A stretch of DNA of 64,000 bases from contig NZ_CP133148.1 of the NCBI RefSeq assembly GCF_036488675.1, positions 1,302,001 to 1,366,000 on the forward strand, written 5' to 3'. Below, piece after piece: positions 53,765-56,516 of this stretch (positions are counted from its first letter, which is position 1; each line of letters starts with the position of its first letter). Under the pieces are notes generated by a model. That model did no database searches and was not told the DNA's origin. It saw nothing but the letters and a program-made list of their open reading frames with translations. The position numbers and the translations under genes were made by a program. This stretch comes from Sinorhizobium chiapasense (GTDB taxonomy: Bacteria; Pseudomonadota; Alphaproteobacteria; Rhizobiales; Rhizobiaceae).

Positions 53765-54577
53765 ATGAATGCTCCGGCAAAAACGGAAGATTTCGCGATC
53801 CAGGCACCGGCAGGTGTCTTTGTCGAGACGGTCACGAGTGTTGCGCACTATACGGACCGGCTCTTCCGTTTCCGTATGACGCGTCCCCAGGAGTTTCGTT
53901 TCCGCTCCGGCGAATTCGCGATGATTGGCCTGATGGTCGGTGACAAGCCCGTCTATCGCGCCTATTCGGTTGCGAGCCCGGCATGGGACGAGGAACTCGA
54001 GTTCTTCTCGATCAAGGTTCCGGACGGTCCGTTGACGTCGCACCTGCAGAAGATCAAGCCGGGCGATCAGGTCCTGATGCGCAAGAAGCCGACCGGCACG
54101 CTCGTGCTCGACGCGCTGGTCCCCGGCCGCAGGCTTTACATGTTCTCGACCGGTACCGGCATTGCCCCCTTTGCGAGCCTCATCCGCGACCCAGAGACAT
54201 ACGAAAAGTTCGAGGAAGTCATTCTTACGCATACCTGCCGTGACGTGGCGGAGCTGAAATACGGCTTCGACCTCATGGACGAGATTCGCAATCATGAGTT
54301 CCTGAACGAGATTGTCGGCGGCAAGCTTCGCCACTATGCGACGGTGACGCGCGAGGACTATCCGTTCAAGGGCCGGATCACCGACCTGATGACCAACGGT
54401 AAGTTCTTTGCGGATCTGGGTCTCCCGCCGCTTGATCCGGCGATCGATCGCGGCATGATCTGCGGCTCCACGGCAATGCTGAAGGACACCAAGGAAATTC
54501 TGGAAGCTGCCGGCTTGACGGAAGGTGCGAACAACAAACCTGCCGAATTTGTCATCGAGCGCGCATTCGTCGGCTGA
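53765..54577 (+). CDS. fpr: Ferredoxin-NADP(+) reductase
   Basis: Transfers electrons between NADPH and ferredoxin/flavodoxin. The 270-residue protein has the FAD motif RAYSVASP, the pyrophosphate-binding FSTGTGIAPFASLIRDPETY in the NADP domain, CGSTAMLKD, and a C-terminal VIERAFVG ending at the flavin. It is the subclass I bacterial type. Its position after the siroheme reductase genes suggests it supplies electrons for sulfite reduction. The ATG at 53765 begins with MNAPAKTEDFAIQAP. A terminator follows. Confidence 0.94.
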   Translation: MNAPAKTEDFAIQAPAGVFVETVTSVAHYTDRLFRFRMTRPQEFRFRSGEFAMIGLMVGDKPVYRAYSVASPAWDEELEFFSIKVPDGPLTSHLQKIKPGDQVLMRKKPTGTLVLDALVPGRRLYMFSTGTGIAPFASLIRDPETYEKFEEVILTHTCRDVAELKYGFDLMDEIRNHEFLNEIVGGKLRHYATVTREDYPFKGRITDLMTNGKFFADLGLPPLDPAIDRGMICGSTAMLKDTKEILEAAGLTEGANNKPAEFVIERAFVG

Positions 54578-54836: not shown

Positions 54837-54860
54837 GCCGTAGACGACATCAAGCCTTCG
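54826..54860. terminator. Inverted repeat spanning two convergent stop codons
   Basis: CGAAGGCTTGA (54826-54836) and TCAAGCCTTCG (54850-54860) are perfect 11-bp arms with a 13-base spacer. The left arm ends in the TGA of the small plus-strand frame, and the right arm contains the TGA of the GntR gene on the other strand. It could be a bidirectional terminator, though the T-runs are short. Confidence 0.5.
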
Positions 54861-55473
54861 CCAGATAATCCATCAATCCGCACATAGCATCAGCGGCGCC
54901 GTCGCCGTCCGCCGCCTGAATCGCGCGCATCACCCTGACGTGGCGCTCTACCGATGCCTTCATTTTTTCCGGTGCGGCCGACGCGAACCATATGCGGCGC
55001 GCGTGGGTCTGCAACGGTGCGAGCGCCGCCGTCAAAAATCGGTTCGGACAGGCGTCTTCCATGATCTCGTCGAACATCTTGTCGGCGACGAGGAAACCCT
55101 CCATGTCCCCTTGATCCGAACACGTTGTCATCGCCCACTCGCAGCCGTTGATCGCCTGGCGAATCTCGGGGGACGCGTTCTGTGCCACAAGGGCGGCTGC
55201 CAGCGGCTCCAGCCGTTGGCGCGTCTCCATCACATGGGCACGATCCTCCGGCCGGATCGTCGTGATCTGCAGTCCCACTCGAGCACGAATGTCGATGAGC
55301 CCTTGCCAGGCCAGTTTTTGGATCGCTTCTCGGACGGGGGTGCGGCCATGCTCGGCAAGTTCGATGAGTTGGCGCTCGGTAACGAGTGATCCGGGCTTGA
55401 GCTTCAGCGTGACGATGAGGCGTTCGAGCGCGAGATAGGCGAGGTGGGCCTGGGACTGGACTAGCATATGCAT
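54850..55473 (-). CDS. GntR family transcriptional regulator, FCD type
   Basis: A 207-residue DNA-binding repressor. The N-terminal winged helix-turn-helix reads LKPGSLVTERQLIELAEHGR with the recognition part TPVREAIQKLAWQGLIDI (about residues 45-62). The C-terminal FCD helical domain with RAHVMETRQRLEPLAAALVA and a His-rich metal or effector site (RHVRVMRAIQA) follows. A palindrome TGATATATCA lies 12 bases upstream of its start and again in front of the broken dapA-like gene, so it probably represses itself and that neighbour. The start is at 55473 or two codons later. Confidence 0.9.
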   Translation of the reverse strand: MHMLVQSQAHLAYLALERLIVTLKLKPGSLVTERQLIELAEHGRTPVREAIQKLAWQGLIDIRARVGLQITTIRPEDRAHVMETRQRLEPLAAALVAQNASPEIRQAINGCEWAMTTCSDQGDMEGFLVADKMFDEIMEDACPNRFLTAALAPLQTHARRIWFASAAPEKMKASVERHVRVMRAIQAADGDGAADAMCGLMDYLAKA

Positions 55474-55484
55474 CCCGCAGTTTC

Positions 55485-55494
55485 TGATATATCA
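55485..55494. promoter_or_regulatory. Probable GntR operator, site 1
   Basis: TGATATATCA is a perfect 10-bp palindrome, 12 bases upstream of the GntR gene start. It is repeated, with the same three flanking bases GAG, at 55531-55543. Two identical sites in a divergent promoter region are typical of autoregulated GntR systems. Confidence 0.6.
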
Positions 55495-55530
55495 GAGATT
55501 GGCACAGATTGGAAAGGGTAGCAAGCAAGC

Positions 55531-55540
55531 TGATATATCA
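55531..55540. promoter_or_regulatory. Probable GntR operator, site 2
   Basis: A second TGATATATCA palindrome 46 bases from the first, directly before the ribosome-binding site GAGGAGG of the decayed dapA-like gene. The spacing of a little over four helical turns would suit two bound dimers. Confidence 0.6.
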
Positions 55541-55550
55541 GAGCCGAGGA

Positions 55551-55667
55551 GGCCTCTGGCGCGGAGTATTTCCGGCAGTAATCACCAAATTCACGCCCGA
55601 AGGCAAGTTCGACAGAGCGGAGATGGCGTGCCTTGCGCTGCAGTCCGACGCCCATGGCGAGGGCCGT
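55551..55667 (+). pseudogene. Remnant of a dihydrodipicolinate synthase/N-acetylneuraminate lyase family gene
   Basis: Right after the ribosome-binding site GAGGAGG (55545-55551), one frame reads LWRGVFPAVITKFTPEGKFD and continues RAEMACLALQSDAHGEG, the N-terminal strand and helix of DapA/NAL family proteins. The start codon is missing (the codon before LW is GGC) and similarity stops after about 35 codons, where the aapP terminator begins. The gene is thus both start-less and truncated. Family members are about 300 residues. The adjacent GntR regulator and twin operators suggest it was once a regulated catabolic gene. Confidence 0.65.
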
Positions 55668-55680
55668 GTGGCGACAATGA

Positions 55681-55721
55681 AACGAGAACGGCCCGCCAGG
55701 TGTTGGCGGGCCGTTCTCGTT
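55681..55721 (-). terminator. Terminator after aapP
   Basis: A perfect 18-bp stem: left arm AACGAGAACGGCCCGCCA at 55681-55698, right arm at 55704-55721, with a 5-base loop. It lies 19 bases after the aapP stop; on the minus strand the run after the stem is GTTTCATTG, a weak T-run, but the stem is very stable. Confidence 0.75.
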
Positions 55722-55739
55722 CGACTCATATCGTCGATG

Positions 55740-56516
55740 TCAGTGCAGGATCTGACTCAGGAACAGCTTGGTGCGCTCGTGCTGCGGATGGTCGAAGAAT
55801 TCGGCCGGCGAGTTCTGTTCGACGATCTGGCCCTGGTCCATGAAGATCACGCGGTTGGCGACCTGACGCGCAAAGCCCATTTCATGGGTCACGCAGAGCA
55901 TCGTCATGCCTTCCTCGGCGAGGCCGACCATGGTGTCCAGCACTTCCTTGATCATTTCCGGGTCGAGCGCCGAAGTCGGCTCGTCGAAAAGCATGATCTT
56001 CGGATTCATGCACAGCGAGCGTGCAATCGCCACACGCTGCTGCTGACCGCCCGAAAGCTGGCCAGGATACTTGTGTGCCTGCTCGGGAATCTTGACGCGT
56101 CTGAGGAAATGCATCGCGATTTCCTCGGCCTGTTTCTTCGGCATCTTGCGCACCCAGATCGGTGCAAGCGTGCAGTTTTCGAGGATCGTCAGATGCGGAA
56201 ACAGGTTGAAGTGCTGGAAAACCATGCCGACTTCCCGGCGCACTTCATCGATCTTTTTCAGGTCGTTGGTGAGTTCGATTCCATCGACGACGATCTTGCC
56301 CTTCTGGTGCTCCTCAAGGCGATTGATGCAGCGAATCATCGTCGATTTGCCGGAGCCCGACGGGCCGGCAATGACGATGCGCTCGCCGCGCATCACCTTG
56401 AGATTGATGTCGCGCAACACGTGGAAGTCACCGTACCACTTGTTCATGTTGGTAATTTCAATCGCAACATCCGTGGTGGACACGGTCATTTTCGACGCGG
56501 CGGCAGTGTTTGCCAT
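55740..56516 (-). CDS. aapP: General L-amino acid ABC transporter, ATP-binding protein
   Basis: Drives the Aap transporter, a broad-range amino acid uptake and efflux system studied in Rhizobium leguminosarum. The 258-residue ATPase has Walker [21 protein letters not shown], the Q-loop in [12 protein letters not shown], the signature [16 protein letters not shown], Walker [15 protein letters not shown] and the switch His in [10 protein letters not shown]. It is the last gene of aapJQMP and is followed by an 18-bp-stem terminator. The gap to aapM is 13 bases. Confidence 0.96.

Follow-up and report, generated by a model that had tools for sequence, protein, structure and literature searches.

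HypR of Sinorhizobium meliloti is a GntR repressor of the hyp genes, according to the available part of PMC5343134, which cites White et al. 2012. Atu1419 of Agrobacterium fabrum is a VanR-type FCD repressor for which a tetramer and DNA looping are described (PMC7797058, available in part). A further HypR is described from Streptomyces coelicolor (PMC6608401, available in part).

The locus treated here lies in a stretch of 64,000 nucleotides (the window, G000:C1:1302001-1366000) of a 6.87-Mb genome of the Ensifer/Sinorhizobium group. It probably encodes a GntR repressor of the FCD type that governs a hydroxyproline regulon, from which the deaminase gene has been lost while the epimerase target has been kept. 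No description of this regulator or its operator was found among the matches listed in the literature search; subscription papers are mostly outside that coverage and the result is weak evidence of absence.

Layout of the locus

The order is fpr, GntR/FCD regulator, two CTGATATATCAG palindromes, DapA-like frame and aapP. Positions are those of the window unless a contig is given, and the names fpr and aapP are those of an earlier, sequence-only reading of this DNA.

53765..54577, + strand: fpr, ferredoxin-NADP reductase, flanking gene (NF008178 at 141.6 bits, below the cut-off of 390)
54850..55473, - strand: intact GntR-family regulator with FCD domain, 207 aa (PF00392, PF07729, purifying selection)
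55484..55495, no strand: predicted operator 1, palindrome CTGATATATCAG, regulator side (sequence and genus comparison)
55499..55504, + strand: relic -35-like box TTGGCA of the dapA-like gene (alignment; putative promoter role)
55530..55541, no strand: predicted operator 2, palindrome CTGATATATCAG, dapA side (sequence and genus comparison)
55546..55552, + strand: relic ribosome-binding site GAGGAGG (AAGGAGG in intact genes)
55554..55664, + strand: relic 5' end of a dapA/NAL-like (PF00701) gene, without start codon (tblastn, alignment)
55683..55719, no strand: perfect inverted repeat between relic and aapP, probable terminator region (sequence)
55740..56516, - strand: aapP, amino-acid ABC transporter ATPase, flanking gene (PF00005; 321.3 bits against the GlnQ model, below the cut-off of 379)
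G000:C1:113699-114730: epimerase-like gene, 344 aa (PF05544, 416.9 bits)

A repeat similar to the one before aapP is present in relatives. The terminator scan did not pick up the repeat at 55683-55719, and the single run of the promoter and terminator scan found nothing.

A relic of a dapA/NAL-like gene

The sequence-only reading proposed that a gene of the dapA/NAL type has decayed next to a GntR regulator of the FCD type that is still intact, and that operators lie in the interval separating the two; relatives in which the full gene is present bear this out. Behind the GAGGAGG motif the frame 55551-55667 indeed lacks a start codon at the position where eight intact genes carry one. The similarity to DapA/NAL proteins that was claimed for it is significant by way of these genes: the frame is 60.5-64.1% identical to their N-termini (tblastn E 1.5e-12 to 8.7e-14), and the reverse comparison of an intact gene with the relic gives 60% over 40 residues (E 2e-11). 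The matching stretch stops shortly ahead of the inverted repeat preceding aapP. The -35-like box is TTGACA in all eight intact loci and TTGGCA in the window.

The relic matched no Pfam family up to E 1 and gave no useful match to Pfam and NCBIfam profiles, because it is too short, whereas the one intact orthologue scored (from genome G007) reaches 165.8 bits against PF00701 (cut-off 22.1). The relic is therefore a remnant of a member of the DHDPS/DapA-NAL family and not itself a member. Enzymes of this family depend on a catalytic tyrosine and a Schiff-base lysine. The relic ends at about residue 40 and has neither, while the intact orthologue carries YNNP from residue 132 and MKES from residue 159. 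The ten DHDPS matches in the genome include no close full-length copy of the lost gene, the best being 32% identical, and the sole third operator stands at another gene. Judged by these comparisons, the DapA/NAL-like frame at about 55554-55664 is the relic of a decayed gene.

The frame is open across 39 codons behind a good ribosome-binding site, as a short functional ORF or leader would be, but that it is such an element and not a pseudogene is extremely improbable. It lacks the start codon and corresponds to the N-terminus of a full enzyme; moreover, the remnant in genome G029 is shorter and gapped, and little or nothing of the frame is left in ten other aligned relatives without the dapA-like gene.

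Distribution and loss of the dapA-like gene

The regulator is present in 22 of the 33 genomes in the genus set. An intact dapA-like gene of 296-297 codons, with a start codon, divergent to the regulator and accompanied by both operators, is found in eight of these 22 (G002, G005, G006, G007, G008, G010, G016 and G021) and is missing in 14. It is missing in all 11 genomes, counting the window's own, in which the identity of the regulator to that of the window is 84% or more; the remaining regulators of the genus are 75-80% identical. A protein search within the genus found pieces of the gene in the window, G017 and G028 only, and our reading of the DNA alignments adds a shorter relic in G029 and identifies the pieces in G017 and G028 as 3' ones. 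In G006 (L062, 3127-4080) an ORF stands between the intact dapA-like gene and aapP; by eye, it resembles an IS110-type transposase.

A wider view is given by 80 named loci, which are the best 80 of 524 confirmed in a scan of GTDB genomes, so that close relatives are over-represented; some of them come from the same genomes as the genus set and the two sets overlap. Among these best 80, the nearest named relative of the window's regulator is that of Ensifer sp. MPMI2T (95%). A full-length dapA-like gene is present in only ten of the 80, and pieces or a broken copy in three more (L156, L179 and L207). Loci without the gene are widespread and include many other Rhizobiaceae. On a regulator tree of 81 rows, made by a quick method with SH-aLRT support only, presence and absence of the gene call for at least six changes, four of which are forced by well supported branches. 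We infer that these changes are losses, because of the relics and because distant relatives have the same gene order.

The deletion had been thought recent and the locus possibly species- or strain-specific. The first idea does not agree with the absence of the gene throughout the group of 11 genomes, and the second is not borne out by the named loci: 77 of the 80 have fpr in one locus with the regulator, the exceptions being L180, L181 and L222, and at least one exact operator site is present in 77 of 80. From these comparisons the loss looks neither recent nor strain-specific.

Operator sites

The two identical sites 46 bases apart were found as described, as exact TGATATATCA sequences starting at 55485 and 55531, and each forms the core of the 12-base palindrome CTGATATATCAG. 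The window has no further TGATATATCA match with one mismatch allowed. Shuffled versions of the window contained 0.45 matches on average and reached two in 6 of 100, so that the pair is only mildly unusual within the window and its weight comes from other genomes.

Searching the whole 6.87-Mb genome yielded TGATATATCA three times, twice at the regulator locus and once more, as an exact copy at C1:113624-113633, 64 bp upstream of the proline-racemase-family gene listed above. All 43 exact CTGATATATCAG matches in the 33 genus genomes are at two loci, 23 at the regulator locus and 20 at the orthologue of this epimerase-like gene; a reversed control pattern has five matches in the same genomes.

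Conservation differs between the two sites of the regulator locus. Counted by eye in the genus, the 10-base core of operator 1 is intact in 8/8 loci with the dapA-like gene and 13/14 without it, and that of operator 2 in 8/8 and 6/14. Among the named loci both sites are exact in 10/10 loci with the gene; without it, both are exact in 31/70, one in 36/70 and none in 3/70. The spacing is 46 or 47 bases in 40 of the 41 exact pairs and 45 in one. Such a conserved distance is compatible with cooperative binding, though it is no proof of it.

Selection on the regulator

The regulator has an N-terminal GntR domain (PF00392, 41.6 bits, cut-off 27) and a C-terminal FCD domain (PF07729, 79 bits, cut-off 24.3), both above the Pfam cut-offs, which agrees with its earlier description as an intact FCD-type member of the GntR family. 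Its median omega is 0.116 in 28 pairs of the eight genomes with the dapA-like gene, 0.120 in 45 pairs of ten genomes without it (G031 was omitted from this set; it looked the same as G032) and 0.150 in three pairs of a second group without it (G004, G018 and G023). The regulator is under purifying selection.

These values bear on a reading close to the earlier one, in which the regulator is a functionless orphan that is being lost after a recent deletion. That the dapA-like gene is a relic and that the core of the operator on its side is lost or changed in 8 of the 14 genus genomes without the gene would be expected of an orphan. This reading is nevertheless improbable, as the median omega stays at 0.12 without dapA, loci without the gene are widespread, and the third exact operator precedes the same other gene in 20/20 genomes that have an extra exact site.

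One genome counts against the preferred reading of a regulator kept for its remaining target. In the S. saheli-like G018 there is no dapA-like gene, epimerase orthologue or exact TGATATATCA, and the regulator is still constrained (omega 0.13-0.15); the relaxed selection that the absence of both targets might have brought is not seen. The only site at the G018 locus (L064) is an altered one, TGACATATCA.

The epimerase-like gene as a probable second target

In the genus, CTGATATATCAG stands 21-65 bases upstream of the epimerase orthologue; in G027 and G002 an outer base is changed at this place and the 10-base core is the same. The core is invariant in 21 aligned epimerase promoters (G005 is not included), while the stretch from it to the start codon differs among them in length as well as in sequence. 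A CTTGCG...CTATGG-like pair, which resembles -35 and -10 boxes, precedes the core in the majority of the 21, and on this promoter reading the core would cover the transcription start. In the S. fredii USDA 205-like G005 (L104, G005:C1:95800-99800) the epimerase gene is apparently split, by a frameshift or an assembly error.

Regulator and epimerase orthologue occur together in 21 genus genomes; one has the regulator only, one the epimerase only and ten have neither (Fisher p 1.3e-6, a test that ignores kinship). The exception G019, an 85% complete draft with epimerase and site in which no regulator was found, counts against the preferred reading, as does the fact that in none of the 80 named loci was an epimerase gene seen closer to the regulator than about 4 kb. 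The suggestion that the regulator might now control something else holds as far as another target is concerned; the evidence favours an old second target that was kept over a new one.

The solved structures closest to the epimerase-like protein are 4q2h (616 bits) and 4lb0 (573 bits, over nearly the whole protein). The available part of PMC4113996 identifies 4lb0 as the Agrobacterium vitis protein B9JQV3, a 4-hydroxyproline 2-epimerase of the Ser/Cys type, although one passage attaches another accession to this description; the number of the 'orange' 4HypE cluster 9 and the definition by a Ser/Cys pair come from the same source. With PF05544 and with Ser91 and Cys253 in matching motifs, the protein resembles this cluster of the proline racemase superfamily; unlike that of the cluster, its activity is predicted only. 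No hyp gene was seen adjoining the gene in the window's genome. It is likely to encode a hydroxyproline-degrading enzyme.

The NCBIfam equivalog cut-offs for trans-3-hydroxyproline dehydratase and 4-hydroxyproline epimerase are not reached: the former is the best match at 354.5 bits (cut-off 550), which counts against the preferred reading, and the latter gives 243.1 bits (cut-off 376). The best match favours a reading in which the regulon is real and serves another pathway, such as 3-hydroxyproline dehydration or D-proline or 5-oxoproline metabolism, and so does the promiscuity of orange-cluster enzymes for 3HypE reported in the available part of PMC4113996. We regard this reading as unlikely, on evidence from outside the genus.

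Comparison outside the genus

More distant members of the family have a GntR protein (39-45%) and a DapA-like gene (60-72%) flanking one or two TGATATATCA sites. Ten such loci were viewed over a longer stretch, and in nine of them (L300, L302-L306, L323, L326 and L335) the dapA-like gene is followed by DAAO-like and second-type epimerase-like genes, domains and names having been checked against profiles in L306 only. The L306 epimerase scores 607 bits, above the NCBIfam cut-off of 376 for 4-hydroxyproline epimerase. In Pannonibacter, transporter genes are followed by genes annotated, in order, as dapA-like, FAD oxidoreductase and 4-hydroxyproline epimerase. Elsewhere the operator precedes a DAAO-epimerase pair (L295, L296) or an S. 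meliloti-type hypD of 72-74% identity (L312, L321, L322). L301, in which GntR gene, operators and dapA are accompanied by neither oxidase nor epimerase in 10 kb, counts against the preferred reading.

In L292, L293 and L329, and also in L290, L291 and L294, the operator heads a pxpB/pxpC (5-oxoprolinase) cluster that runs into an epimerase gene, with pxpA and a biotin-carrier gene divergent; profiles were run on the genes of L329 and L292 only. These clusters suggest a link between hydroxyproline and 5-oxoproline-type chemistry, and they are a further point for a regulon serving another pathway. Against such a pathway stand the operons of dapA-like, DAAO-like and epimerase-like genes with one epimerase above its cut-off, the DAAO-epimerase pairs and the operator before hypD. 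Operons, oxidase-epimerase pairs, pxp clusters and hypD behind the operator together point to the breakdown of trans-4-hydroxyproline.

The exact 12-mer is present in 44/199 family genomes and the reversed control in 14/199, so that part of the matches at family level is chance. Thirty site loci of the family were fetched. In 17 a regulator, dapA-like or epimerase gene of at least 39% identity is within 1.5 kb, and two more (L245, L257) lead into more distant epimerase clusters. The other 11 have no link to regulator, dapA or epimerase, which counts against the preferred reading; L232, with 24% matches that were not counted, is one of these. Seen from the epimerase side, 29 loci were examined, from 32 other family genomes with a match: an exact site is at most 1.5 kb upstream in ten, 1.7-3.0 kb upstream and apparently heading a gene cluster in six more, and absent in 13, which again counts against the preferred reading. 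On these counts the regulon holds firmly within the genus, and beyond it only in part.

On a Rhizobium sp. N1341 plasmid (L334) a 47% relative of the lost enzyme is divergent to a different GntR gene, in a neighbourhood of sugar-utilisation and not hydroxyproline genes. Members of the wider DapA-like subfamily are thus not confined to hydroxyproline, a further point against the preferred reading.

A proposed mechanism

Building on the relic, the conserved operators, the likely targets, their co-occurrence with the regulator, purifying selection and the operons of relatives, we infer as follows how the regulator binds and represses, what its effector is, where the promoter boxes lie and what the enzymes do. 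The locus would be left over from a regulator gene and an enzyme gene that stood divergent to each other. The repressor, a GntR protein of the FCD type acting as a dimer or perhaps a tetramer, would bind the TGATATATCA palindromes at three places: by its own promoter, near the point where transcription of the divergent deaminase gene (dapA-like) starts, and directly behind the -10-like box of the separate 4-hydroxyproline 2-epimerase-like gene. By analogy with Atu1419 its targets would be its own gene, the epimerase gene and, in the past, the deaminase gene, and a metabolite of the hydroxyproline pathway would lift repression. The epimerase, and a D-amino-acid oxidase encoded elsewhere, would feed the deaminase, which would form alpha-ketoglutarate semialdehyde.

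In the lineage of the window the deaminase gene would have been lost and have been eroding since. The loss could be tolerated because of a non-orthologous S. meliloti-type hypD in the genome, and the survival of the regulator is probably due to the control that it would still exert over its own gene and that of the epimerase.

A broader version can be offered tentatively, and we hold it with less than even confidence. It supposes a hydroxyproline regulon throughout the Rhizobiaceae whose regulator is no orthologue of HypR and whose operators were handed between non-orthologous deaminase genes and the epimerase gene. The twin sites found in 31 of 70 loci without the dapA-like gene might then have been kept because they serve cooperative or looped autoregulation.

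A regulator that looks like an orphan is in this way assigned to a likely pathway, with likely operators and targets, across a large group of bacteria that live in association with plants. The locus also offers a natural series of decay stages in which one arm of a regulon is lost and the other kept. Hydroxyproline is common in plant cell-wall proteins, and the regulon would therefore bear on life around roots. The preferred reading also predicts that two non-orthologous hydroxyproline regulators exist side by side in some rhizobia.

Relation to known systems

The S. coelicolor HypR, which represses hydroxyproline genes, is likewise of the FCD type and has several operators, but it has another motif, CTNTGC(A/C)ATGTCAC, and another gene set; it is set beside the present regulator by description, from the available part of PMC6608401.

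The S. meliloti HypR regulon resembles the proposed one in having a GntR regulator and targets of the epimerase, oxidase and deaminase types, and in that autoregulation is common in its family (PMC5343134, available in part). It differs in that the window's regulator is similar to HypR over 54 residues of the DNA-binding domain only (43%), HypD and the lost enzyme type share only 27% identity, and the S. meliloti hyp region (L338, 25 kb) contains no TGATATATCA with up to one mismatch. The window's genome carries S. meliloti-type hypR (83%) and hypD (91%) on C1 (L011). The window's regulator was considered as an orthologue of HypR and rejected, the similarity not being full-length and the 83% relative being found elsewhere in the genome.

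A second hydroxyproline-type cluster (L149, G000:C5:1503000-1522500) has its own GntR regulator, a 61% epimerase paralogue, oxidase-like and DapA-like genes and probable transporter genes. It was rejected as a member of the regulon, as its 19.5 kb contain no TGATATATCA with up to one mismatch.

Atu1419 differs in its motif (ATGTATACAT), its spacing of 190 bp and its pathway, and tetramer and DNA loop, shown there, are hypothetical for the window's regulator. It is likewise of the FCD type and has a 10-base palindrome in three identical copies, of which two lie in its own promoter region and the third at another target. As far as the available part of PMC7797058 goes, Atu1419 is the nearest described architecture found.
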